Shown here piece after piece: positions 25,542 to 54,767 of a DNA stretch of 64,000 bases. The DNA lies in NCBI RefSeq assembly GCF_000938255.1, contig NZ_JYMR01000002.1, forward strand, positions 1 to 64,000, written 5' to 3'. The notes under the pieces were generated by a model that did no database searches, had not been told where the DNA came from, and saw nothing but the letters and a program-made list of their open reading frames with translations. The position numbers and the translations under genes are program-made. This DNA comes from Bradyrhizobium sp. LTSP849 (GTDB lineage Bacteria; Pseudomonadota; Alphaproteobacteria; Rhizobiales; Xanthobacteraceae). Numbering within the stretch: position 1 is the stretch's first letter; every line of letters starts with the position of its first letter.

Positions 25542-25673
25542 TGAAGCCGCCGAGCGGGTACCCAAATTAAGTCAATAATACTTACCTATATTCATTTGTC
25601 CATGCCCAAAGAAGAATGTGGGTGCGTGCCCCGCGCGGTTGCGGGAAAAGCCCCCGTCGCGTATCTGCTTGCC

Positions 25674-27269
25674 ATGACAGCAGCACAGAACCGCGAGTCG
25701 TCGACGCCCTCATTGGCCTCGGCGCATGACAAGATTCTCATCGTCGATTTCGGCAGCCAGGTGACGCAGCTGATCGCGCGTCGTGTCCGCGAGGACGGCG
25801 TCTATTGCGAGATCGTCCCGTTCAACAAGGCCGAAGAGGCCTTCAGGGAGATGAAGCCGAAAGCGGTGATCCTCTCCGGCGGCCCTGAGTCGGTGCACGA
25901 AGCAGGCTCGCCCCGCGCACCGCAGCTGATCTTCGCCTCCGGCGTGCCGGTGCTCGGCATCTGCTACGGCCAGATGGTCATGGCGGAGCAGTTAGGGGGC
26001 ACCGTCGAGGGCGGCCATCACCGCGAATTCGGCCGCGCCGATGTCGAGGTCAAGGCGCCGAGCAAGCTGTTCGAGGACGTCTGGTCGCCGGGCGGCAAGA
26101 ACCAGGTCTGGATGAGCCATGGCGACCGCATTACCAAGATGCCGCCGGGTTTTTCCGTCGCCGGCACCTCGCCGAACGCGCCGTTCGCGATCATCCAGGA
26201 CGAGACGCGCAAATATTACGGCCTGATGTTCCACCCCGAAGTGGTGCACACGCCCGACGGCGCAAAACTGATCCGCAATTTCGTGCGCAAGATCGCGGGC
26301 CTCTCCGGCGACTGGACCATGCGCGCCTTCCGCGAGGAGGAGATCGCCAAGATCCGCGCGCAAGTCGGCAAGGGGAAGGTGATCTGCGGCCTCTCCGGCG
26401 GCGTCGATTCGGCCGTCGCCGCCGTGCTGATCCACGAAGCCGTCGGCGACCAGCTCACCTGCGTGTTCGTCGATCACGGCATGCTGCGTCTTGATGAAGC
26501 CAAGACCGTGGTCGATTTGTTTCGCCACCACTACAACATCCCGCTCGTGCACGTGGACGCGTCAAAGCAATTCCTCGGCGAGCTCGAAGGCGTCACCGAT
26601 CCCGAAAAGAAGCGCAAGACCATCGGCCGCCTCTTCATCGAGGTGTTCGAAGCGGAGGCCAAGAAGATCGGCGGCGCCGATTTCCTTGCGCAAGGCACGC
26701 TCTATCCCGACGTGATCGAGAGCGTCTCCTTCACCGGCGGCCCCTCGGTGACGATCAAGTCGCACCACAATGTCGGCGGACTGCCCGAGCGCATGAACAT
26801 GAAGCTCGTCGAGCCCTTGCGCGAGCTGTTCAAGGACGAGGTGCGCAAGCTCGGCCGCGAGCTCGGCCTGCCCGAAATCTTCGTCGGCCGCCACCCGTTC
26901 CCGGGCCCCGGCCTCGCCATCCGCTGCCCCGGCGACATCACCCGCGAAAAACTCGACATCCTGCGCCAGGCCGACGCCGTCTACATCGACCAGATCCGCA
27001 AGCACGGCCTCTACGACGACATCTGGCAGGCCTTTGCGGTGCTGCTCCCGGTCAAGACCGTCGGCGTCATGGGCGACGGCCGCACCTACGACTTCGTCGT
27101 GGGCCTGCGCGCCGTCACCTCAACCGACGGCATGACCGCGGACTTCTACCAGTTCGACATGAAGTTCTTAGGCGAGACCGCCACGCGCATCATCAACGAG
27201 GTGAAGGGCGTGAACCGGGTGGTGTACGACGTGACGAGCAAGCCGCCGGGGACGATTGAGTGGGAGTAG
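25674..27269 (+). CDS. guaA: GMP synthase (glutamine-hydrolysing)
   Basis: The 531-residue protein has the class I amidotransferase domain first (GICYGQMV with nucleophile Cys97; HPEVVHT), then the ATP pyrophosphatase domain with P-loop [10 protein letters not shown] starting at Ser241, and the C-terminal dimerisation domain ([13 protein letters not shown], ending TIEWE). It converts XMP to GMP and completes the pathway begun by guaB. The ATG giving MTAAQNRE is chosen; an ATG 24 codons upstream adds a non-conserved leader. The 3' end of guaA is a known target of site-specific integrases, and a foreign-looking block begins immediately after the stop. Confidence 0.95.
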
Positions 27270-27275
27270 GGGGGA

Positions 27276-28343
27276 TCAATAGATAAGTGAGATCCTATCG
27301 CCTCCGAAATCGGAAACATAAATCCGATCGAGGGAATCCAAGGCGATCCCACCTAGTGTTCCGAATGTGCCAGGGAGAAGAGTTGGCGTTCTGGACCCTT
27401 TTGGTAAGACGAGCACTCGTCCCGAGTGAAATAGTGCCAAGAATAGAGTGCCTTGATTGTCGATAGTTATATCGGACACGCTGTCAGCTGAGCCATGCGA
27501 TATCGGTTCGATAAATGTGCCGTCTCCTCTGAATACGTCGATGCATTTGGCTCTGCGGTTGTCGACGTAAATGTTGTCTTGGCTGTCGATAGCTATCGAA
27601 GTCGCAAGACTTCGTAGCGAAAATTCAACTTCGGTCCCGTCAGGATCAATCCGGGCTACAGTTCCGGTATCAATTGATCGGCCGAAGATTGTAATGAAGG
27701 CTTGGCCCAGGCTATTGGTTGCGATCGATTGTTTTGAACCTATGGACTTTGTGGCCAACAGCGTCCCGCGAGCGTATTTTTTTCCGTCCCATTCAAATCG
27801 ATGGCAAGCATTCCGCGTGAGGTCGTTTACGTAAAGTCGGTTCTGTGCGTCCACAGCCAAGCGGGTGATAGCATACACTGCTGTGTCGGCCACGGGTAGG
27901 CGCAGAACTGTTTCGAATCGACCGCTAGGATCAATTCGGTAAACCTGAGCAGATTGATTGCAGATAAAGAGATTGCCGTCTGTAGAGAATCGAAGTTGTT
28001 GCAGTCTGCGCAAACCTTGAAAAAATATGACTGAATCCTGCTTTGGAATGCTTTCTATTGTAACTGTAGCCGTCGCTTCGAAATTATCCAGATGGCAGGA
28101 AATTCTGGTTTTGCCGAGTGCCTTCGAAATTAATGTTGGGCCCGATGCATAAGCGATGCTCGTATCTGCAATTGTCCAAGTAACGCGATCGGTTACATCA
28201 ACTTCACGTCCCATTGGGCCATGGTTTTCCCAAGCGATTGCTCTAAGGGATCTTCGTTCTCCGACCTGGGTGCGGATTGAGTCCGGTCTTATGGAAATGC
28301 CTCCAACTAAGTAAGGAGTGCTTTGGCCGACAATTTCAGGCAA
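27276..28343 (-). CDS. Ig-like (BIG2-type) plus NHL beta-propeller protein, accessory
   Basis: The 355-residue product has an N-terminal Ig-like region (residues about 10-100, with VTWTIADTSIAYASG as in BIG2 domains) and then about five propeller blades of NHL/SMP-30 type, seen as recurring segments such as LAVDAQNRLYVND, IAIDSQDNIYVDN and IALDSLDRIYVSD. There is no signal peptide, unusual for such domains. The only start is TTG at 28343, eight bases inside the preceding gene and without a clear ribosome-binding site. The frame is open upstream to 28442, so it may be made by frameshift or begin at a rarer codon. The DNA is lower in GC than its surroundings (25 G/C of 60 at 28081-28140). No function is known. 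Confidence 0.7.
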   Translation of the reverse strand: MPEIVGQSTPYLVGGISIRPDSIRTQVGERRSLRAIAWENHGPMGREVDVTDRVTWTIADTSIAYASGPTLISKALGKTRISCHLDNFEATATVTIESIPKQDSVIFFQGLRRLQQLRFSTDGNLFICNQSAQVYRIDPSGRFETVLRLPVADTAVYAITRLAVDAQNRLYVNDLTRNACHRFEWDGKKYARGTLLATKSIGSKQSIATNSLGQAFITIFGRSIDTGTVARIDPDGTEVEFSLRSLATSIAIDSQDNIYVDNRRAKCIDVFRGDGTFIEPISHGSADSVSDITIDNQGTLFLALFHSGRVLVLPKGSRTPTLLPGTFGTLGGIALDSLDRIYVSDFGGDRISLIY

Positions 28344-29244
28344 TGCGATCGTTGCGGAATCCCAAGCCTTCTCTAGCGCCGTTTGTCCCGGAGGGCGATA
28401 CCCAGTTTTGACCGATGATGGGCGCAGAAAACGGTCCGTGTGTTACGAAGTCTCCGTCTTGATAGCGCCCCTTTAATGTCGGTTGGATGCGGTGAAATTC
28501 TGTGCCTGACTCGTTTGCTAGCAACAGCATGCCGACCACGTCTTCTCGTTTCGTCGTCCCGGTTTCGTCTTCAAACAGAGTTAGATCTGTCGCGATTATT
28601 CGATACGAATTTTCTCGTTCGGTCGTGAGGAGCCTCGTGTCGCAATGGACGACGTTGCTTGTGTTTTCGCCGGATTTCACGAATAATTCGCCACAAAAGC
28701 CCGGCGGCAAAGATATCTCCAGCAGATCGTTTTGCCATCGTCGGACGTTAAAGTTAGTGGTCTCGTTCAAGACTTCGGAGGCTTTATCAAAATTTCGGCC
28801 TCTCAGTTCCAACAAAGGGGAATCTGGTGTGCCGAATACGCGCAGTCTCGTGATCGAGGGGAACGTGTTGCGGTCTTTTTTTAGGAGCTCGAGCAGCAGT
28901 GTTGCGAACTGCAGATATAGGAGGCATTCACGGTTGGTCCGACACGGAATAAGCGGGGCCTTCTTGTGCCCGCGATCGTTTCGGATGTTTCCTAAAGCAC
29001 CTGTAAACAGCTGTTTCATCGCCACGCGATCGCGTGCATTAGGGGAGATGTCTATCTTGGGACTCGATCCGTCAAATGCCTCGTCAAGCAAGGCTTGACC
29101 GATGCTAGAACTATCAATGCGTTGTTGAATTTCAGCTTCGAGCAAGCGAAACGCGGCGAATATAGCATCGTCAAATTTTCCGGCTTCGGCGATGGCAGCT
29201 GAAGCGTCCCAAATTTCTTTGTCGATTCCGGCCCAGAATGACAT
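28336..29244 (-). CDS. TIGR02391-like (Ymh-type) domain protein, accessory
   Basis: The 302-residue protein opens with about 110 residues resembling the TIGR02391/Ymh domain: DDAIFAAFRLLEAEIQQRI, then AFDGSSPKIDIS and KQLFTGALGNIRNDRGHKKA, the last matching the family's LF-x-GA-x-x-x-x-NxxxH element. The rest is unrecognised and beta-rich. TIGR02391 proteins are frequent on phages and in defence islands, with a presumed but unproven role there. The ATG at 29244 is used; a TTG 14 codons upstream is possible. It overlaps the propeller gene and both have low GC, so they look like one transferred pair. Confidence 0.65.
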   Translation of the reverse strand: MSFWAGIDKEIWDASAAIAEAGKFDDAIFAAFRLLEAEIQQRIDSSSIGQALLDEAFDGSSPKIDISPNARDRVAMKQLFTGALGNIRNDRGHKKAPLIPCRTNRECLLYLQFATLLLELLKKDRNTFPSITRLRVFGTPDSPLLELRGRNFDKASEVLNETTNFNVRRWQNDLLEISLPPGFCGELFVKSGENTSNVVHCDTRLLTTERENSYRIIATDLTLFEDETGTTKREDVVGMLLLANESGTEFHRIQPTLKGRYQDGDFVTHGPFSAPIIGQNWVSPSGTNGAREGLGFRNDRIA

Positions 29245-29448
29245 ATTGTTTGTCCGCTTATGCTGGTAGCTCTTCGATATTCCCAAATGCTACCAAATGT
29301 AGATATGCGAGCAGTGAAGATGACTCTGCGGGCACAAGAGATCAAGCCGACCAGCAATTCATTGGATGCTTATTGTACCTAGCGACGGACAACAGAACTA
29401 ATGCGTCTCACGTTGCGACGTCCAACGCCAGATGTATGCGACTGAAAT

Positions 29449-29518
29449 CTCGGCGCAAACGATGGATGTGCACCGCGCTCCCGCATGCTACGACATCCGC
29501 ATCGCCTTCCAGAGCCAG
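29449..29518. repeat. Diverged 70-base intergenic repeat, copy A
   Basis: This stretch (starting CTCGGCGCAAACGATGGAT, ending CATCGCCTTCCAGAGCCAG) aligns with 31933-32003 over its whole length at roughly 80% identity with one two-base and one small offset. Both copies end in GAGCCAG. Neither copy is coding in any convincing frame. Confidence 0.65.
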
Positions 29519-29521
29519 TAA

Positions 29522-29588
29522 GTAGGATGGGTAGAGCGCAGCGAAACCCATCGTGGTCGGGTTGATGGGTATCGCTTTGCTCCACCCG
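29522..29588. repeat. Palindromic repeat, GTAGGATGGGTAGAGC family (copy 1)
   Basis: The left arm GTAGGATGGGTAGAGCGCAGCG and right arm TGATGGGTATCGCTTTGCTCC are inverted in part (GATGGGT...ACCCATC; GGAGC/GCTCC types). The same element, more diverged, is at 31521-31598. Confidence 0.75.
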
Positions 29589-29638
29589 TCCTTCGAACTC
29601 TGGCAGGCAGGGAATGTCGACAGTAGCGGAGGGGTTGC

Positions 29639-30124
29639 ATGGGTGAGGACGACAAGAAGAAGGAATTCGTTGAGCGGGTACGGCGGCACTTTCAGGAGAT
29701 CACGCCTCAACTGAATATAGAAATGGCGATGATCGCAGAACTGTCATGGGAAGAGGAGACGAGCTTCCTGCTGATTGAATACGACGCGTCAGAGTTTAGC
29801 GATGAATTTTTTGTGGCTCTGTGGCCGATGGATGCCGATGGCGAACCTGTCGACCGGGAGGGGCACTGGTTTCTCAAGGGCCGGACGGTCGTCGTTCCCT
29901 CCGAAATTTATGATGATGAGAAATATGAGGCGATCGAACAGGGGGAAACGGCTTCAGAGCTTCTGGAGCAGTGGTTCGCCCAGGCATGGCGTGCCCATGG
30001 GCCTAAGGCGCTTCCCGCCTATATCGGCCACCACGACAGCTATTTCAAGATCGATCTGGCCACCAGCGGACAGGTGAATTGGGACGGCATCCTTGCGCAA
30101 GCAAAGGCTGGGCTCGCCTCATAG
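29639..30124 (+). CDS. Acidic 161-residue protein of unknown function
   Basis: The product begins with a charged helix (GEDDKKKEFVERVRRHFQEI) and contains an unusually acidic middle (DASEFSDEFFVALWPMDADG; PSEIYDDEKYEAIEQGE). There is no signal peptide or membrane helix. It is about the size of small immunity proteins, and a SUKH-type protein lies 1.5 kb downstream, but I recognise no family motif. GGAGG lies six bases before the ATG, so translation is well supported. It is followed directly by the displaced guaA fragment. Confidence 0.65.
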   Translation: MGEDDKKKEFVERVRRHFQEITPQLNIEMAMIAELSWEEETSFLLIEYDASEFSDEFFVALWPMDADGEPVDREGHWFLKGRTVVVPSEIYDDEKYEAIEQGETASELLEQWFAQAWRAHGPKALPAYIGHHDSYFKIDLATSGQVNWDGILAQAKAGLAS

Positions 30125-30237
30125 TCTCGCTATTCGTGAGCGCGCAGGATAGGGGAGCCTAAGGGGATTACGGTGCCGGTGTATGAAACTTGCAATGCAC
30201 GACCCAGGCCCCCATCATGTCCAGGCGCCTGCCTGAC

Positions 30238-30414
30238 AAGCTCGACATCCTGCGTCAGGCCGATGCCGTCTATATCGACCAGATCCGCAAGCACGGTCTC
30301 TACGACGACATCAGGCAGGCCTTCGCTGTGCTGCTGCCGGTCAAGACCGTCGGCGTCATGGGCGACGGCCGCACCTACGACTTCGTCGTGGGCCTGCGCG
30401 CCGTCTCCTCCACC
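30238..30414 (+). pseudogene. guaA: Displaced internal fragment of guaA (59 codons)
   Basis: This stretch aligns without gaps to guaA 26949-27125 (codons 426-484). I count 11 differences in 177 bases; nine are synonymous, and two change the protein (Trp to Arg, Thr to Ser). Outside these limits similarity ends abruptly: the upstream part and the final 47 codons of guaA are missing. The mainly synonymous divergence means the piece evolved as part of a working guaA, probably in another strain, and came in with an integrating element. It cannot encode an enzyme. Confidence 0.93.
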
Positions 30415-30493
30415 AGGGCACGTTTTTAGGGGCTCCGTTTCAGTCGGTCATGTACCATGATGGTATCTGGCGGCGAACCGAACGGAGAATACC

Positions 30494-30646
30494 TTGTTGA
30501 CCGATACGGGACTTCAGAAGCTCAAGCCTGGCGAGAAGCTTTACAAGCGCGGCGACCGCGACGGCATGTACGTTGCCGTCCTGCTCATCAATAGGCGCAA
30601 GCAGATCTGGGAAAGTGGCGACCACACCATCAAGGTGGTGCATTGA
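30494..30646 (+). pseudogene. N-terminal remnant of a DUF4102 tyrosine integrase
   Basis: A TTG start with GGAG six bases upstream opens a 50-codon frame. Its first 28 residues (LTDTGLQKLKPGEKLYKRGD followed by RDGMYVAV) match the arm-binding DUF4102 domain that begins P4/phage-type tyrosine integrases. After that the match is lost and the frame stops at 30644-30646; the catalytic domain with the R-H-R-Y residues is absent. It lies 80 bases after the guaA fragment and reads the same way, the position expected for the integrase of a guaA-inserted island. Confidence 0.82.
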
Positions 30647-31029
30647 TGCGCGCCGCGTTGAAAGTGGTGATGGCCGCAATATTTGTGATGCCGGCTGCGG
30701 TGGCTCTGGCGAAGTCTCCGGACTGCGCGAGTTGGCCCACCAACATGGCACTCGTGCACCTCAAGAACGCCGGCCTGATTGATATCCCATCAGTGATCGA
30801 GGCGCAGACCAGGGCCGTTCGTCTCGCATCCGAAAAGATCGGCAAAGACCTCCACCGGCAGGTTTACGACATCACGTTTTACACCAAGGATGGCAAGACG
30901 ATCGAGGTCATCACGAACAGCCGAGCATCAAGCGAGGAATGCTCGATGAGCGCCGTCGACGTCTACGTGGTCTCGAAGAAAATCGGCGGGTCGGCAGAGC
31001 AGCCATCTGAGGGCACGACTAAAAAGTGA
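30646..31029 (+). CDS. Small exported protein of unknown function
   Basis: The 127-residue product has a clear Sec signal peptide (MRAALKVVMAAIFVMPAAVA, cleavage probably after ALA near residue 22) and then a small mature domain with three cysteines, ending in a charged tail GSAEQPSEGTTKK. The ATG overlaps the stop of the integrase remnant by one base (TGATG). I do not recognise the family. The mature part looks like a compact alpha/beta domain (QVYDITFYTKDGKTIEVIT). It is probably periplasmic. Confidence 0.72.
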   Translation: MRAALKVVMAAIFVMPAAVALAKSPDCASWPTNMALVHLKNAGLIDIPSVIEAQTRAVRLASEKIGKDLHRQVYDITFYTKDGKTIEVITNSRASSEECSMSAVDVYVVSKKIGGSAEQPSEGTTKK

Positions 31030-47368: not shown

Positions 47369-48550
47369 TCATCCTTCGGGCCGGATCAGCTTGATATCCT
47401 GGTCGGCAGCCCAACCGGCAACGTCCTCGCGTTTCAGCGCGGTTGCCATCAGATCCGGAAACTGGTCCGGCGTGCAGGCGAAGACGGGAATGCCGAGGCT
47501 CGCGACCCTCGCTGAGAGCGCGGGGTTGTAGGACGGCCGCCCAGTATCGGTCAGCGCCAGCAGTACGATCACGTTGATCCCGCGCGTGGCGAGCCTGCCG
47601 AGGCGATCGACCAGCGCATCTGCGTCGCCGCCCTCATAGAGGTCGGTAATCAGGATCAGATGCGCCTTTGCCGGCCGCTCAATGTGGTCCTCGCAATAGG
47701 CGACCGCGTGGTTGATATCGGTGCCGCCGCCGAGCTGGACGCCGAACAGCACCTCGACCGGATCGGCGAGTTCCTCGGTCAGGTCCACGATAGCGGTGTC
47801 AAAACAGACGAGCTTGGTCGCGACCACCGGCAGCGAGGCCATCACCGCGGCAAAGATCGAGGCATAGACGACTGAGGTTGCCATCGATCCCGACTGGTCG
47901 ACGCACAGGATGACCTCCTCCAGATCGACGATGCGACGCTGCTGGCGCAGGAATCCGATCAGTCGTTCGGGCACCACGGTGCGATGCTCCGCCTGGTAAT
48001 GGCGCAGATTGGCCTTGATGGTGCGTGGCCAGTCGATATCGGCAAAACGCGGGCGATTGGTCCGCAGCGAGCGGTTCAAGGCGCCGCGGACCGCGTCCGC
48101 AGTGCGCCGTTCGAGCCGCTCCATCAGCTCGGCCACGACCTTCGCGATCACGACGCGGGCAGTGTCTTTGGTCTTCTCCGGCATCACGCCGCGCAGCGCG
48201 ACCAGATCGGCGATCAGGTTCACATCCGCTTCGACGGTCGCGAGGAACTCGGGCTCGAGCAGCATCTGGCGCAGGCCCTTGCGCTCGAATGCGTCCTTCT
48301 GGATCACCTGCACCACAGGCGCAGGGAAGAACTCCCGGATATCGCCGAGCCATTTCGCCACGCGCGGGGCCGAGCCGCCAAGCCCGCCGCGGCCCTTCTT
48401 CGGTGCGTCGTCGCCATTGCCGTAGAGCGCCGTCAGCGCCTCGGACATGCGGCGATCGCTGTCGGACAGGGCGGGGCCGTTCCCGGCTCCGTCGGCATCG
48501 GCGCCGAGGGCAAGCGTCCAGCGGCGGCTGCGCTCTTCGCTCTCGCTCAT
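47369..48550 (-). CDS. VWA-domain protein of the MoxR-VWA cluster (YehP-like)
   Basis: The 393-residue protein has an acidic N-terminal region, a helical domain, and a C-terminal von Willebrand A domain. The MIDAS metal site begins CVDQSGSM (DxSxS) near residue 215, with GGGTDINHAV further on as the T and ITDLYEGG as the distal D. No signal peptide or membrane helix is present, so it should be cytoplasmic and partner the MoxR ATPase. Its start overlaps the end of the DUF5682 gene by four bases (ATGA). Confidence 0.9.
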   Translation of the reverse strand: MSESEERSRRWTLALGADADGAGNGPALSDSDRRMSEALTALYGNGDDAPKKGRGGLGGSAPRVAKWLGDIREFFPAPVVQVIQKDAFERKGLRQMLLEPEFLATVEADVNLIADLVALRGVMPEKTKDTARVVIAKVVAELMERLERRTADAVRGALNRSLRTNRPRFADIDWPRTIKANLRHYQAEHRTVVPERLIGFLRQQRRIVDLEEVILCVDQSGSMATSVVYASIFAAVMASLPVVATKLVCFDTAIVDLTEELADPVEVLFGVQLGGGTDINHAVAYCEDHIERPAKAHLILITDLYEGGDADALVDRLGRLATRGINVIVLLALTDTGRPSYNPALSARVASLGIPVFACTPDQFPDLMATALKREDVAGWAADQDIKLIRPEG

Positions 48551-50772
48551 CGCGCCGCTCCCGACGTGAAGAGTTCGATCACACGTGACTGATGTGCCGG
48601 CCAGATGGCGGCTGCGTCCGCGACCAGCCTGTATCCTTTCGAGCCGCCCGAGTGGCGCGCGAACAACGCGTCCATCAGGCGCCGGCGCTCGGTGCGATCG
48701 AGCGCCGAGAACACGCGGCGAAACAGCGGGAGGTTGGCGGTGAAGGCATCCTCGTCGAGAGCCATCAACCATGCATCCACCGCGCCGCGCAGCTCCGCGT
48801 CATGGATCAGCCGTTGGCCCGCGCCGTCAAAGAAACCTTCGAAAAAGCCGGCTGCTTCCGCGACTGGCGTGCCGGGCGACAGCATCCGCGCCATGAGCTC
48901 GGCGGCGCGATCGGCGGCGAGCAGCTCGGCTTCGTAGAGCAGCCGCGCGGCAGTGCCCGCGATCAACCGCGTCGCCTGGTCATCGTGCAGCAGAGCTGAC
49001 AGCGCGTCGTGCCATGTGGTGACGATGTCGCCATCGAGCTGGGCGAGCTGAATCGCGGCATCGGCTGCGATGATCGCCGCGCGCAGCTTGGCTGCGGCGG
49101 GCGCGTCGAGATTGCGCGCGGTGTAGGGCAGGGCGAGGGCCGCCTGCACCACAATGCGGGGCATCAGCGCGGAGAGATGCTCGACCGTGCCGGCGCGCGC
49201 CTCGCCATAGCGCAGGATGTCGGCCATCGGCGGCAATGCGCCGAGCAGGGCCTGGCCGTCGCTGGTGAGCGCTGCCTTGGTCTCCAAAGCCGCGATGCCG
49301 CGTTCGGTGGCGCGCGGCAGATCGGCGATCATGGCGTCACGCACGAGGCTAGCCAATACGCCGAGCTCGGCCTCCTTGCCCATCGCCTCGATCAGGCGGC
49401 CGGCGGCGGCTTCCGCAATCGTCGAGCCGTAGAGCAGGTTTTCGACCAGCCGCACGGCGAATTCCGGCTCCCAGCGCAACTGCCAGTTCTCGCGAAAGGT
49501 GCCGCGGCTGCGGCCGGCATCGGTCAGCCGTCCCCAGGGCACGTCGAGCGCATTCAGGCGATGCAGCAGCGTCGAGCGTATCAGCCCGCTCTCGCTGCGC
49601 AGATCGAGCGTCAGCGGCCGCTCCAGCGCTTCCGGTTTGAGCCGTGTCGCCTTCTGCTGGCGCTGAAGGTCTTCGAGCAGCGGCGCAAGCGGTGTCGCCG
49701 CGGGAATTGCGCCGACACCCGCGCCGACCAGGAGTTCGGCGGCAATATCGTTCCACAGCGCGCGCTCGCCGTTGCAGAGGCACGCGATTGCCGCCTCACG
49801 GAGCTCGGCGAATCCCGGCGCGGGTCGGCCGCGCAGCGCGGCGAGCGCGGTGCCGAGCCGCTGCGCCTCGATCACCGAGGCGGTCGAGACGAAATGGCCG
49901 TGATCGCGCAGTACGCGACTCACCTTGGCAAGCCAGATGGCCGTACGATCGCCCTCGCGCGTCTCCCAGAGATGCGCGCACCAGCCGGGCGCAACGACGC
50001 CTGCGCCATAGCCGCTCGCGCGCGACAGGCGCGGCGCGGTCCAGGGCGCCCAGGTTGCCTTGATCTTCGTCTTCGGCCGGCCCTTGAGCAATTCGCGGTC
50101 CGCTGCAAGGCTGCGGCGTTCCGCGAGCGCGGGCACGTGCCAGGCGCCGCAGACGACAGCAACGGCGCCGTCGCATTCCTTTGCCGCTCTTGCGATCTCG
50201 ATCCGCATATGCGCCTCGCGCGCGGCCTCGCGGGCCGACAACGGCTTTTCGCCCGTGCGCAGCGCCGTCATCGCGTCGGCGACCGCTGCGAACACGGGGC
50301 CTGTTGCTGGATTTTCCTCGATGACGTCCGACCACCAGGATTCGCCGTCGTCATATCCGGCCGCGGTCGCGAGCGCGCCGATCGGGTCGCGGCTGACTGG
50401 ATCGTCTTCGGACCTCGCCGCGCTTTCCTCTGCGATGTCTGCGGCCGAGGCGCCCAGCCGGTCCGATGCCGGCAGGTCGATGAAGCGCAAGGCTGCGCCG
50501 TGGCGCACGGCCCAGCACGCGGCCTGGTATTCCGGCGAATAATCCGCAAACGGAAAGAAGCTGGCGTTCGCCGGATTGTCCTCGGCGTAAGCGAGCAACG
50601 CCACCGGCGTCACCATGTCAGGGGCGGCGAGCATCGGCAGCAGGTCCGACGCATCCGCAGGCCCCTCGATCAGCACCGCGACGGGCTTGAGCGCGTCGAG
50701 CGCTTCGACAAGGCGCCGCGCCGATCCCGGCCCGTGGTGCCGGATTCCGAACAGTGAGATTTGGCCCGTCAT
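48547..50772 (-). CDS. DUF5682-family protein of the MoxR-VWA cluster (YehM-like)
   Basis: The 741-residue protein has a conserved N-terminal third. The motifs LFGIRHHGPGSA, LIEGPADASD and AVVCGAWHVPAL carry well-placed His and Glu residues, resembling the motifs of the TIKI/TraB/EreA-type putative metallohydrolases. The rest is a long helical domain. I infer that it could be an enzyme or a substrate-binding partner of the AAA+ ATPase. The gene lies between the MoxR and VWA genes; the stop overlaps the VWA start by four bases. No activity is known. Confidence 0.85.
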   Translation of the reverse strand: MTGQISLFGIRHHGPGSARRLVEALDALKPVAVLIEGPADASDLLPMLAAPDMVTPVALLAYAEDNPANASFFPFADYSPEYQAACWAVRHGAALRFIDLPASDRLGASAADIAEESAARSEDDPVSRDPIGALATAAGYDDGESWWSDVIEENPATGPVFAAVADAMTALRTGEKPLSAREAAREAHMRIEIARAAKECDGAVAVVCGAWHVPALAERRSLAADRELLKGRPKTKIKATWAPWTAPRLSRASGYGAGVVAPGWCAHLWETREGDRTAIWLAKVSRVLRDHGHFVSTASVIEAQRLGTALAALRGRPAPGFAELREAAIACLCNGERALWNDIAAELLVGAGVGAIPAATPLAPLLEDLQRQQKATRLKPEALERPLTLDLRSESGLIRSTLLHRLNALDVPWGRLTDAGRSRGTFRENWQLRWEPEFAVRLVENLLYGSTIAEAAAGRLIEAMGKEAELGVLASLVRDAMIADLPRATERGIAALETKAALTSDGQALLGALPPMADILRYGEARAGTVEHLSALMPRIVVQAALALPYTARNLDAPAAAKLRAAIIAADAAIQLAQLDGDIVTTWHDALSALLHDDQATRLIAGTAARLLYEAELLAADRAAELMARMLSPGTPVAEAAGFFEGFFDGAGQRLIHDAELRGAVDAWLMALDEDAFTANLPLFRRVFSALDRTERRRLMDALFARHSGGSKGYRLVADAAAIWPAHQSRVIELFTSGAAR

Positions 50773-50785
50773 GCCAGCCCCGGTC

Positions 50786-51862
50786 TCAGATCCGATCGGT
50801 CAGCGAAGCATAATAGCCTTCGAAGCCGCGCTTCTTCTTCAATACCGTCTCCAGATATTCGCCGAGCACGGCCGTGTCCTGCACCGGATCCTTCACGACC
50901 GCGCCGATCATGTTGCTGGCGAGCGTTTCCGGCGTCAGCTTGCCGTCGTTGAAGAAGGTCGCCTGGCTGATCCCGCCAATCATCACCGCGATCGCTTCGG
51001 CCGTCGAGAGCCCGCCCGAGGGCGACTTCAGCGCGACCTTGCCGTCCTCGGTCGAGCCGGAGCGCAGCTCGCGGAAGATCGAGACCACCCGCGCCACCTC
51101 GTCAGCGACGTTCTTGGGCGCGGGCAAATCGAGGTTCTGCGCCATCTCGCCGACGCGCTTGACGATGATCGCGACTTCCTCCTCGGCGCTATCGGGCAGC
51201 GGCAGCACGACGACATTGAAGCGGCGCTTGAGCGCGGAGGACAATTCGTTGACGCCCTTGTCGCGGTTGTTGGCGGTCGCGATGATATTGAAGCCACGTT
51301 GCGCATAGACCGCGGTGTTGAGCTCCGGGACCGGCATCATCTTTTCCGACAGCACCGTGATCAGCGTGTCCTGCACGTCGCTGCCCATCCGCGTCAGCTC
51401 CTCGAAGCGGCAGAGCTTGCCGCCTTCCATCGCGCGCATCAGCGGGGTCGCGACGAGAGCGTCGCGGCTCGGCCCATGTGCGAGCAGCTGGGCATAGTTC
51501 CAACCGTAGCGGATCTGGTTCTCGTCGGTCCCTGCCGTGCACTGGATCACCAGCGTGGAGTCCCCGGTGATGCCCGCGGCGAGATGCTCGGAGACCCACG
51601 ATTTGGCGGTGCCGGGGACGCCGAGCAGCAGCAGCGCGCGATCGGTTGCAAGTGTCGCAATGGCGGTCTCGATCAACCGCTTGTCGCCGACATATTTTGG
51701 TGTGATCACTGTCCCGTCGGCCGCCTTGCCGCCCATCAGATAGGTCACGACCTGCCGCGGCGTGAGCGCCCAGCCGGGTGGGCGATGCCCGTCGCCCGCG
51801 GCAAGTGCCTTCAGCTCCGCCGCATAGCTCTGCTCGGCCGGCAACCGCAGTTTTTCGCTCAT
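50786..51862 (-). CDS. MoxR-family AAA+ ATPase (YehL-like)
   Basis: The 358-residue protein has a single AAA+ domain: Walker A LLGVPGTAKSW near residues 79-89, a Walker B region LCRFEELTRMGSDVQDTL, and sensor 1 in NIIATANNRDKGVNELSSAL. MoxR ATPases work with VWA proteins as chaperones or remodellers of protein complexes. The first residue of the usual Walker B DE pair is replaced (FEE), which should be checked against the family. It overlaps the preceding DUF5691 gene by four bases and lies 13 bases before the DUF5682 gene. Confidence 0.92.
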   Translation of the reverse strand: MSEKLRLPAEQSYAAELKALAAGDGHRPPGWALTPRQVVTYLMGGKAADGTVITPKYVGDKRLIETAIATLATDRALLLLGVPGTAKSWVSEHLAAGITGDSTLVIQCTAGTDENQIRYGWNYAQLLAHGPSRDALVATPLMRAMEGGKLCRFEELTRMGSDVQDTLITVLSEKMMPVPELNTAVYAQRGFNIIATANNRDKGVNELSSALKRRFNVVVLPLPDSAEEEVAIIVKRVGEMAQNLDLPAPKNVADEVARVVSIFRELRSGSTEDGKVALKSPSGGLSTAEAIAVMIGGISQATFFNDGKLTPETLASNMIGAVVKDPVQDTAVLGEYLETVLKKKRGFEGYYASLTDRI

Positions 51863-53289
51863 GGCTTCGCTCCCTTGTCGTCCAACGCGGCGTTGAGCCG
51901 CAGCATGTCGAGGCGCGGGTCGCCTTGCAGCAGGCCCGCAGCCGTCAGGCGTTCCAGCGATCGTCGCGCGCCTTCGCGCGAGGCAATCAGGCCCAGCGCG
52001 TGGAGTTCTGCGACCTGGTCGGAAGGCTTTGCATCGTCGCTTCGGAGCGCTGCCAGTAGCGCCTTGCCGGCCGGCGCAGACAGCGGATCGTTGAGCCGCG
52101 CTGCGGGTCCCGCCATCGTTTGCGCCAGCTCGAAGCGGATGCCGTGTGTGTTCAAGGCGGCCTCGGCCTGTCTTGCGCGCTCGGTGGGCGCGATCCGCGG
52201 TGCGAGCGCCACGATGAGGCCGGTCGCATCGTGCTGGCCGATAGCCTTCGCCACGTCCGCGACTTGTGTATCGGTCCCGGTTGCCACGACCAGGTTGATC
52301 AGCGCCATGTCCGCGGCCGGATCCACGTTCCAGTCCCAGGCGGCGATCAACTCCTGTGGCGTGATACCGAGCGCTCCCGCAAACGATGCGAGATCGGCGC
52401 CATCGAGCAGCGCCTTGCGGCGTTGCCATTGCGCCGGCGTCTTGGGACGCTCGGCCTCGATGACGCGCGCGCGGCGCAAGATTCCCCTGGTCTTCACCGA
52501 GAAGAAGCCGGCGAGCTCGGCGGCATCCTCGCCGATCACTTGACCGCGGCCGAGACGCGCGAGCAGCGAGGTGGCAAGCGCCTTGACCTTGGGCGCGCGG
52601 TCATTGGCCACGATGGCCTCGAGGAAAGCGATGTCGTCGTCGGACAGCCGCTCGGACAACAGCGATAGCAAACGCAGTCTTGTGTCGGCGCCCTCGTTAC
52701 CGAGCTTCGCCTCCAGCACCGCGCGTGCCGCGGACGGATCGCGTCGCCGCAGCTCGGCCAGTGCGACTTTGCGCGCGGCAGGCCAGAAATCGTCCCAATT
52801 GCCGACGGTGATGTGGTCGTTCGTCTGCTGCCGCGCGGCGTTGTTGGACGCTGCAATCTCCGCCCAGTCGCGCCACGGTGCATAGACGTCGGGCGCGTCA
52901 TCATCGCCGGCCTCGGGCATCCAGTCGGCAGGATGCGTCGTCCAGCCGCGCGCCGCGAGAAAGTCGACGAGCTCGGTCTTGCCCTGCGCCTGTTTCTTCG
53001 CCGCGAGCATTCGGCGCGCCAGCGGGCGCAATGCCTCAGGTAAGGTCGGCAAGGCGAGTGCGGGAATGTCGGGCAGGACGCGGAGCGTTGACGCCGGCTC
53101 GGCCGTCACCGCGATGCCGAGGAACTGGCCCGACAAAGCGAGCAGCCGCAGCTCTGCTTCCGCTGGATCCTCGCCAAGCTCGGCGCGCCAGAACGGGGCC
53201 GCCGCTGCGGCCGCCGATCCCATGGTCCAGCGCGTCAGCACCGTGCCCATTGCGTCGTAGATTGCCTCGGCCTTGAGCGCGTCAGTCAT
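51859..53289 (-). CDS. DUF5691-family protein of the MoxR-VWA cluster
   Basis: The 476-residue protein is largely alpha-helical with repeat-like alternation of hydrophobic and charged residues. Recognisable family segments include FLAARGWTTHPADWMPEA, AARQQTNDHITVGNWDDFWP and AWDWNVDPAADMALINLV. DUF5691 is found next to SWIM and MoxR genes but has no known function; a helical scaffold or HEAT-like role is possible. The ATG giving MTDALKA overlaps the SWIM gene by eight bases. The stop overlaps the MoxR start (ATGA). Confidence 0.85.
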   Translation of the reverse strand: MTDALKAEAIYDAMGTVLTRWTMGSAAAAAAPFWRAELGEDPAEAELRLLALSGQFLGIAVTAEPASTLRVLPDIPALALPTLPEALRPLARRMLAAKKQAQGKTELVDFLAARGWTTHPADWMPEAGDDDAPDVYAPWRDWAEIAASNNAARQQTNDHITVGNWDDFWPAARKVALAELRRRDPSAARAVLEAKLGNEGADTRLRLLSLLSERLSDDDIAFLEAIVANDRAPKVKALATSLLARLGRGQVIGEDAAELAGFFSVKTRGILRRARVIEAERPKTPAQWQRRKALLDGADLASFAGALGITPQELIAAWDWNVDPAADMALINLVVATGTDTQVADVAKAIGQHDATGLIVALAPRIAPTERARQAEAALNTHGIRFELAQTMAGPAARLNDPLSAPAGKALLAALRSDDAKPSDQVAELHALGLIASREGARRSLERLTAAGLLQGDPRLDMLRLNAALDDKGAKP

Positions 53290-54670
53290 GGCTGCCGATC
53301 CGTCCCCACGGGGTCTGCGCGGCGAGGATCGTGAGCCGGCTGCCTGACCAGATTGCAGCCGCGCGCGTGAGGTCGGTGCCGCACAGCAGGCCCTCCGCAT
53401 TGCTCGCGATCGGCAATGTCGCGGTGCCGTCGCCGGATTGCCACCACACTTGCCCGGCATCGTCGCGCGCGATCCGCCCCTGCGGCAGCAGCAGCGGAAT
53501 GTCGATCGTCCACGGCTCGGCCAGCAGCGGCCGCGTCAAGGCGTCGGAGAGCGCTTCATCCGGCGCAGGCCATTCGGGCGCCAGCGTCTCCTCGGCGGCG
53601 CCGCGCCGGACGAGCAGGGCGCGAAGCGGCTGCTGTGACGGATAGAAGACCAGCTCGCCCCGGAAGCGCTCGCCTGGCGTGAAGACCGAACCGCGTCGTC
53701 CGACACTTGCCGGGAAGAAGTCCAGCAGCATGGCAAAGCGTGGCCCCGACGCGGCGAGATTGAGCAGCCATGTGGTCTGCGACACCAGCCCGTCGCGGCG
53801 CGTCTGCACGTGTTCGGCGAGCACCTCCCATTGCGTATCGACCCGCACGGCTTGCGGATCGGCCAGTACCGTTTCGCGGGTTTCGGAGGTTGCGACGGCG
53901 CGCCTGACCTCGGCATCGCGCGGCGTGGCGCGGAAGGCGCGCGCGAGCATCACCAGCTTGCCGAGCTCGACGACCGCGCCGCGTGGCCGATCGCCTGCGG
54001 CAAGCGCGAGCAGGCGAGACGGTAGTTCGTCGACACGGCCGGCGAGCACTGCGGCCTTGCCATCGACCAGGCGCGCCGCGATCCGCCGGCATCGCGCCGT
54101 AGCATCGTCGATGAAGCCTGCTAGTCCCAAGCGCAGCTGGTCGCCGATCCATTGTTCGAGCGCATCCAGCGCATCGAGGATGGCGCGCTCTGTCTCTTCG
54201 TTTCGCCTGGCGGCCTGGGCCTCGCGCCGTGCCGCATCCTTCGGGTCTTCGGCGACCTCCGGTTCGACAATGCGTGCGGCACGCAAATCTTTCGCGTCAC
54301 CGGACGGTGCATTGTTCGCAGGCTTGGCTGCGGATGTGCCACGCCGGCGACCGAGCCAGTCGCTGACCCATGCCGGCGTATCGGCTGGCGCGAACGGCAC
54401 GATGGCTTCGGCGTTGAGCCACAGCAGGCCGAGCACGTGCTTGCAGGGGAATTTGCGCGATGGGCAGGTGCACTTGTTGCCGAGGTCGCGCAGGTCGGCC
54501 ATCACGCGGTAGGGATTGGCGCCGGAGCCCGCGCATTCGCCCCAGATCAGCGCGCCATCCGGGCTGCCGCCGATGCCGGACCATTTGGCCGGCTTGGCAA
54601 GACCGGCGGCCGCCTTGAGCGAGGATCGATCGGTAGCGAGTTGCTCGACCGCCTTCAGATCAATCGCCAC
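53282..54670 (-). CDS. SWIM zinc-finger protein of the MoxR-VWA cluster (YehQ-like)
   Basis: The 462-residue protein has one SWIM zinc finger, CTCPSRKFPCKHVLGLLWL, at residues about 67-85, with all four zinc ligands (C, C, C, H). A glycine-rich segment and a long charged region follow (EDPKDAARREAQAARRNEE), which may be a coiled coil. Start is GTG at 54670. It is the first gene of the five-gene operon. SWIM domains bind DNA or protein; the ligand here is unknown. Confidence 0.9.
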   Translation of the reverse strand: MAIDLKAVEQLATDRSSLKAAAGLAKPAKWSGIGGSPDGALIWGECAGSGANPYRVMADLRDLGNKCTCPSRKFPCKHVLGLLWLNAEAIVPFAPADTPAWVSDWLGRRRGTSAAKPANNAPSGDAKDLRAARIVEPEVAEDPKDAARREAQAARRNEETERAILDALDALEQWIGDQLRLGLAGFIDDATARCRRIAARLVDGKAAVLAGRVDELPSRLLALAAGDRPRGAVVELGKLVMLARAFRATPRDAEVRRAVATSETRETVLADPQAVRVDTQWEVLAEHVQTRRDGLVSQTTWLLNLAASGPRFAMLLDFFPASVGRRGSVFTPGERFRGELVFYPSQQPLRALLVRRGAAEETLAPEWPAPDEALSDALTRPLLAEPWTIDIPLLLPQGRIARDDAGQVWWQSGDGTATLPIASNAEGLLCGTDLTRAAAIWSGSRLTILAAQTPWGRIGSHD

Positions 54671-54767
54671 GCCGATATCCTAAACCGATTCCAGGATGCG
54701 CAGTATATCGGGGGAGGATGAAAGCTCAATGTCACCGCGAGTGGCCGGCGGCTGCACGCGGTGATCG

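Follow-up and report, generated by a model that had tools for sequence, protein, structure and literature searches.

Five adjacent genes on the minus strand of a 64,000-nucleotide stretch of Bradyrhizobium sp. LTSP849 DNA (contig NZ_JYMR01000002.1, positions 1 to 64,000; hereafter the window), which encode a SWIM zinc-finger protein, a DUF5691 protein, a MoxR AAA+ ATPase, a DUF5682 protein and a VWA protein, form one co-inherited system. Sequence comparison places this cassette as a second variant of the YehL-type MoxR-VWA system, distinct from the one in E. coli, and the N-terminal part of DUF5682 is likely a TIKI/TraB-type hydrolase domain and thereby a candidate enzyme. The TIKI/TraB-like signature, which putatively marks the catalytic part of the protein, is the new element presented here. 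Tentatively, and with a confidence somewhat short of even, we propose that the five proteins constitute a single machine powered by ATP, with a MoxR ring that acts via the VWA protein and would thereby switch on DUF5682 as a TIKI/TraB-like hydrolase.

When named genomes were scanned with an alignment of DUF5682 proteins, at least 572 relatives came up, and the best 80 loci were kept together with their flanks; as these were picked by similarity, they lean towards the window's own variant. In profile searches of their open reading frames (ORFs), all five parts were present in 72 of the 80 loci, always on one strand, and the exact order SWIM-DUF5691-MoxR-DUF5682-VWA occurred in 69, or in 70 when a locus with a split DUF5682 (L076) is included, while one locus (L032) has all five parts in a permuted order. 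In an Isosphaeraceae locus (L068:5803-8736) the SWIM and DUF5691 proteins are naturally fused in a single ORF of 977 residues, which matches the two families with 478 and 333 bits, is followed by the other three genes and offers a ready single-chain target for structure work. The distance matrices of the five proteins, computed for 72 sets (the window and the 71 fetched loci in which the five proteins have ORFs of their own), are correlated in all ten pairs with r between 0.897 and 0.962, against a maximum of 0.135 in 200 label permutations per pair. The complete loci, the common strand, the fusion and the correlated distances all speak for the single co-inherited machine that a preliminary description of this DNA had supposed.

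The junctions between the genes are mostly tight, with spacings of -20 to +30 bases in 64/67 loci for SWIM-DUF5691, 44/68 for DUF5691-MoxR, 56/72 for MoxR-DUF5682 and 63/70 for DUF5682-VWA; these counts exclude six insert-bearing loci, the window and E. coli, and they are biased towards tightness since the start codon giving the tightest junction was chosen, among overlaps the one nearest to -4. Inserts of more than 400 bases interrupt 6 of the 72 complete loci and include a PIN-domain gene (L083) and a 784-residue ORF (L059). In Allochromatium warmingii (L089:7832-9849) the space between MoxR and DUF5682 is occupied by a gene for a C5 DNA methylase and another that matches no Pfam family; the two may be a restriction-modification pair that landed inside the cassette.

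Five of the eight incomplete loci are cut by contig ends (L037, L044, L072, L074 and L078), which leaves only three whose missing partners are not fully explained in this way. In L063, SWIM is absent from the 1.5 kb upstream and VWA is not directly downstream. The other two, L047 and L049, are a Nostocaceae and a Blastocatellia contig in which DUF5682, possibly a solo form, has no VWA or MoxR nearby: L047 has DUF5682 at a contig end and no VWA within 10 kb downstream, and L049 has no MoxR within 4.4 kb upstream of DUF5682. Genes often standing apart, or DUF5682 and DUF5691 occurring without MoxR and VWA, had been named beforehand as the pattern that would make a single machine improbable; such exceptions amount to these 3 of 80 loci, and every placed DUF5691 copy above the cut-off was in a cassette.

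The close association of DUF5691 with the system is also evident from a census of 150 genomes sampled from the phylum, one of which is the window's own. DUF5682 was present in six of them and DUF5691 above the cut-off in four; all four are among the six and carry both genes in one cassette, and the other two have yeh-type loci. A weak DUF5691 match in one genome (G009; E value 5e-4, below the cut-off) has none of the five families nearby and was left uncounted. In 19 genomes of other loci, 20 out of 20 DUF5691 copies lie in the cassette (19 by coordinates compared by hand), the extra copy being located in the second of two diverged complete cassettes (L143 and L073) of a Trueperaceae genome. 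Altogether, 24/24 placed copies above the Pfam cut-off are inside such a cassette. In a plasmid collection 36 records, some of them chromosome-sized, contain a DUF5682 relative, 12 of which cover at least 80% of the query, and the RefSeq annotation of a Rhizobium sp. K102 plasmid copy displays the same five genes. A tblastn search of the plasmids with DUF5691 gave no match even though a plasmid DUF5691 exists, since a search of this kind misses so rapidly diverging a protein.

The five-gene cassette appears self-contained over nine phyla. No conserved sixth gene was seen among the 25 largest flank clusters, judged by eye without domain assignment; the widest cluster occurs in 21 of 82 sources, and the clusters looked general or lineage-bound (LysR, MFS and, by guess, ABC transporter). 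The nine phyla of the DUF5682 tree are given by submitter names and include several metagenome bins. Bacteroidota and Cyanobacteriota each form a single group, and Pseudomonadota, Verrucomicrobiota, Actinomycetota and Chloroflexota are split; therefore the whole unit may have moved between lineages, of which the tree alone is no proof.

In DUF5682 a TIKI/TraB-like N-terminal domain, roughly residues 1-250, precedes a C-terminal region that is long and helical. The conserved sequences GIRHHGPGS, LIEGP, REAxMR and CGAWHVPA had raised the suspicion of a TIKI/TraB/ChaN/erythromycin-esterase superfamily member ahead of the tests. In an alignment of 60 sequences (A4, which combines the window's protein with those of 55 among the 80 loci and four further sequences) the residues His12, His13, Glu36, Arg185, Glu186, Gly209 and His212 are invariant, as they are in 10/10 sequences of a set including E. 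coli YehM, and Gly9 is found in 57. The spacing of the His-Glu pair is 24 in DUF5682 (His12 and Glu36), 26 in 25 of 30 TraB and 23-29 in seven ChaN sequences. A second GxxH following an Arg-containing helix is a motif of the TIKI/TraB superfamily; in DUF5682 it is present after Arg185 as Gly209xxHis212 in all 60 sequences, and the TraB and ChaN profiles align exactly there. When the DUF5682 N-terminal profile was compared by hhalign with a profile of 30 TraB sequences, the match covered 36 columns about the second motif with a score of 28.96, against at most 23.4 in 400 column shuffles and 12.9 for the reversed profile, and the full-path alignment brings the two GxxH motifs, and with them the Glu, into register. 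A four-motif regular expression, drawn up after seeing the sequences, matches 57 of the 60 aligned DUF5682 proteins, 78/83 DUF5682 ORFs, 29/30 TraB and 7/7 ChaN sequences, compared with 0/310 partner ORFs and 17/1585 background ORFs. The AlphaFold2 model has a mean predicted local distance difference test score of 91.2 with a confident alpha/beta N-terminus, and among the viral predicted structures of BFVD it is matched best by a Marseillevirus LCMAC201 protein of the TraB family (rank 1, probability 0.99). The earlier supposition that DUF5682 acts as a target-side or effector protein can thus be sharpened, as the invariant residues and the TraB profile match liken its N-terminus to TIKI/TraB hydrolases.

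A number of observations weigh against this assignment. The hhalign probabilities are low, at 13% for the N-terminal profile and 54% for the second motif alone, the local match spans just the 36 columns, and the first motif alone, which is the second-best independent match, is not significant (E 0.07-0.1). Among 15 unrelated profile pairs the top score was 24.9 (MoxR with erythromycin esterase), so that values of 23-25 represent noise; the accepted pair TraB-ChaN scores 23.2, within this noise, and hhalign accordingly sees TraB-DUF5682 but misses TraB-ChaN. The DUF5682-ChaN score of 23.55 lies below its own 60-shuffle maximum of 24.8, though the same motif is aligned, the erythromycin-esterase profile, a thin one of five close sequences, did not match DUF5682 (E 0.15), and global hhalign of DUF5682 gave nothing useful. 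The BFVD match to TraB is likewise weak (E 0.018, template-modelling scores 0.13/0.37). In a Foldseek search of the PDB with full-length DUF5682 no TIKI protein was among the 50 of 921 matches listed, which are mostly helical repeats, and none had E below 0.001; the lists are helical because the C-terminus of DUF5682 fills them. A search of PDB sequences with the DUF5682 profile returned chance matches only (best E 0.32). Finally, the residue two positions before the first His is Ile in 57 and Val in 3 of the 60 DUF5682 sequences and not Glu; the same position is Thr in 21 and Ser in 9 of 30 TraB sequences, and Glu in 7/7 ChaN. TIKI enzymes have a 2His/2Glu site with a His-Glu pair and include both metal-dependent and metal-independent members, as passages of PMC6254334 describe. 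Since the first Glu of this site is missing, the domain is called TraB-like here and not a proven TIKI enzyme, and since both kinds of enzyme exist, metal loading by the MoxR-VWA pair would be possible but not required.

The window's MoxR protein was compared with two MoxR subfamilies: it has 41% identity and 229 bits with YehL of E. coli, and reaches 21.6 bits with RavA. The Walker A and sensor-1 patterns are found in 70 and 71 of the 72 complete sets, respectively, and the Walker B motif ends in EE, where DE is usual, in all 72. The closest solved relative of the MoxR profile is midasin (E 3e-27), with NorQ at E 6.6e-4. The VWA protein is 34% identical to YehP (219 bits) and scores 25.8 bits with ViaA; its metal ion-dependent adhesion site (MIDAS) residues D218, S220, S222, T277 and D303 are invariant in six aligned sequences, a loose DxSxS-T-D pattern of the site is present in 71/72 complete sets, and a PDB sequence search with the protein gave no match at E 0.001. 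DUF5691 is likely a HEAT-type repeat scaffold because of weak profile matches to HEAT-like alphaRep and AP-2 chains (best E 0.02) and a precomputed PF13646 HEAT_2 label of one relative (P0132). The C-terminal half of the SWIM protein is modelled as beta-rich and weakly OB-like, and no PDB sequence matched the protein at E 1. A hydropathy check of the window's five proteins for membrane segments and signal peptides gave a peak of 2.06 for the VWA protein, located inside the VWA domain and taken as its core; the machine is predicted to be cytoplasmic, with the cytosolic placement of DUF5682 deduced from hydropathy only.

The model of a single machine draws on the NorQ/NorD pair. Portions of PMC13036017 and PMC9976466 describe that a finger of the VWA protein enters the pore of the NorQ-type MoxR hexamer and that the MIDAS is needed for client activity and not for NorQ binding, and they propose a twisting-and-stretching model that enables metal insertion into the client; published accounts also depict MoxR proteins, in the parts that bear on this, as chaperone-like activators with seven subfamilies, YehL among them. 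By analogy, the cassette's MoxR would form a hexameric ring whose pore is plugged by the VWA protein, and the MIDAS metal would bind an acidic patch of a client which, in this case, may be encoded in the cassette itself as DUF5682. Through ATP hydrolysis the active site of DUF5682 (His12, Glu36 and His212) could be opened, loaded or gated, allowing the protein to cut a peptide or ester bond, with the HEAT-like DUF5691 possibly serving as the scaffold and the SWIM protein bringing in a substrate or signal. In loci of the E. coli type the scaffold and recognition places would go to a DUF4132 protein and to a SWIM protein of another kind. Every step beyond the sequence signatures is inference. 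The DUF5682 genes without MoxR or VWA nearby in L047 and L049 also run counter to the model in its strict activator form.

More doubtful in its full form, yet conceivable, is the notion of a new energy-dependent hydrolase in which the MoxR ring and the VWA plug gate DUF5682 on a HEAT scaffold and the SWIM adaptor chooses the substrate. We know of no TIKI/TraB fold coupled to an AAA+ motor. If true, the cassette would be a bacterial AAA+ protease-like machine with two variants, a DUF5691 type and a DUF4132/yeh type, the second of which occurs in E. coli K-12; MoxR-VWA pairs would then gate a hydrolase, beyond metal insertion or complex maturation, and the Pfam families DUF5682 and DUF5691, which co-occur over nine phyla, would gain a likely function. 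The TraB-like site provides a testable biochemical handle, consisting of three residues, an ATP motor and a client, for which E. coli K-12 is usable; yehL of its related yehLMPQ genes is seldom mentioned in the open literature.

Other explanations of the cassette have to be weighed against this machine. Like CoxDE, NorQD and RavA-ViaA, the machine might mature an outside client, for instance a respiratory complex or a metalloenzyme, with DUF5682 as a chelatase-like or adaptor subunit and not as a hydrolase needing activation. The studied MoxR-VWA pairs, as far as the available excerpts go, have such clients and the VWA protein of the cassette belongs to the CoxE type; moreover, ChaN of the same superfamily binds haem, and work by Lee from 1990 reportedly tied E. 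coli MolR to molybdate use, molR presumably mapping to the yeh region. The 25 flank clusters judged by eye, however, contain no obvious metalloenzyme, the cassette is self-contained throughout its phyla, and in Deinococcus molybdate genes moved independently of DUF4132 genes according to part of PMC8533742, all of which renders an outside client unlikely, if still worth serious attention. The same part of that source reports that DUF4132-/MolR-like genes of Deinococcus radiodurans go up on DdrO depletion, which, together with the SWIM domain and the weak OB-like matches, could point to a stress or DNA-damage machine where the SWIM protein with its OB-like domains binds nucleic acid and MoxR, VWA and DUF5682 remodel or cleave a bound regulator; we regard this as quite improbable.

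Less probable again is an anti-phage or conflict system akin to the ternary MoxR-vWA systems known from multicellular bacteria. Such MoxR-vWA conflict systems are in print, and the division of Pseudomonadota, Verrucomicrobiota and Actinomycetota in the tree would fit transfer without proving it, but support for phage defence is limited, being confined to the patchy spread (6/150 sampled genomes) and the single methylase gene inserted in L089. PADLOC matches are at chance level (best E 0.035), the MoxR protein scores 23.4 bits with bpMoxR, under the cut-off of 27, the 52 pattern matches in viral contigs include no relative, and a phage collection gave a single unverified record. The window neighbours, judged by eye, resemble ordinary metabolic and regulatory genes, the cassette has a high guanine-plus-cytosine (GC) content that is not island-like, and the terms SWIM, TraB, TIKI, YehL and DUF4132 are all absent from the main text of the 2020 article in eLife. 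A defence role is therefore unsupported by PADLOC, viral contigs, phage records or flanks. That the genes constitute a mere loose operon of functionally separate members is very unlikely: the three loci with missing partners, the six with inserts and the permuted order in L032 would agree with it, but the constant order and strand, the co-inheritance, the SWIM-DUF5691 fusion and the single context of DUF5691 argue otherwise.

In the window itself, the five genes, their order and the minus strand are base-exact as first described, and ORF and start-codon inspection gives junctions of -8, -4, +13 and -4 bases from SWIM to VWA, matching the overlaps of 8, 4 and 4 bases and the 13-base gap noted before. 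All five proteins receive their Pfam family names above the cut-off, and an NCBIfam search of the five yielded nothing above any cut-off. The sigma-70-like site is a single match in 8.6 kb where 0.6 are expected by chance, and hence weak. The GC content is 0.67-0.69 at 48-54 kb, slightly higher than the 0.62-0.67 usual in the window. The genome comprises 8.57 Mb in 57 contigs, and its closest named relatives are Bradyrhizobium.

Table 1. Features of the five-gene cassette, in window coordinates.
Feature	Position	Strand	Details
SWIM zinc-finger protein	53282..54670	minus	GTG start, 462 residues, Pfam SWIM 28.3 bits
DUF5691 protein	51859..53289	minus	476 residues, Pfam DUF5691 69.4 bits
MoxR AAA+ ATPase, YehL type	50786..51862	minus	358 residues, AAA_5 123.2 bits
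DUF5682 protein	48547..50772	minus	741 residues, Pfam DUF5682 708.1 bits
VWA_CoxE-type protein	47369..48550	minus	393 residues, VWA_CoxE 170.2 bits
Possible sigma-70-like promoter	54702..54729	minus	31 bases upstream of SWIM start; weak

Elsewhere in the window, the stretch 27276-31000, which is low in GC (0.516 in 28001-30000), adjoins a guaA-like ORF (25596-27269, a GMP synthase by eye) at that ORF's 3′ end. Among its genes are one with NHL repeats and one of the Hypoth_Ymh family (PF09509), and the stretch has the look of a small inserted island; guaA is known as an integration site.

The E. coli K-12 locus, with the gene order yehI (DUF4132), yehK (small), yehL, yehM, yehP and yehQ, shares with the cassette the order MoxR-DUF5682-VWA and the presence of a SWIM protein. 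DUF5682 is 29% identical to YehM over 509 columns (145 bits, E 3e-40), and YehM scores 330.8 bits to PF18934, so the likeness to yehLMPQ that had been noticed extends to homology of MoxR, DUF5682 and VWA with YehL, YehM and YehP. The two loci differ in the remaining parts. E. coli has DUF4132 (YehI) and, in the control rows, no DUF5691 match, and in the yeh-type loci L093 and L094 the gene adjoining MoxR encodes a DUF4132 protein with HEAT_2 above the cut-off (30.5 and 43.4 against 27.7 bits); in YehI itself the last 303 residues were scanned for HEAT_2. DUF5691 is not simply an addition to the yeh group, as had been thought, but stands in place of DUF4132, which defines the second variant. 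The yeh SWIM gene is the last one and longer, and its product can be aligned with the SWIM protein of the window no further than the cysteines and histidine of the zinc finger; Pfam SWIM is above the cut-off in YehQ, reaches 17.6 against 19.6 bits in the L094 protein, and is represented in the L093 protein by the CxC..CxH pattern only. A common core of MoxR, DUF5682 and VWA, to which each variant adds DUF5691 or DUF4132 and one SWIM-type protein, is what these alignments indicate. As for the suggestion of an undescribed system, the open-access literature searched (5.39 million papers), with subscription papers and preprints outside its scope and no claim of priority, mentions neither DUF5682 nor DUF5691, but the YehL subfamily of MoxR ATPases has already been named in print.

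Among other known systems, the bpMoxR and vWA-MoxR-VMAP ternary conflict systems likewise have a MoxR and vWA core, but the cassette's MoxR is below the bpMoxR cut-off and, by Pfam, no beta-propeller or effector module is found among the five proteins. DUF5682 resembles the TIKI/TraB/PrgY/ChaN/erythromycin-esterase superfamily in the order and similar spacing of the His-Glu pair, the Arg and the second GxxH, and differs from it in the large helical C-terminus, the predicted cytosolic location, the association with an AAA+ pair and the lack of the first Glu. NorQ/NorD, CoxD/CoxE, CbbQ/CbbO and RavA/ViaA also combine a MoxR AAA+ protein with an adjacent MIDAS VWA protein. RavA and ViaA barely align with their counterparts in the window, and in contrast to NorQ/NorD, CoxD/CoxE and CbbQ/CbbO, the cassette contains no cNOR, CODH or Rubisco genes and has three extra conserved partners.

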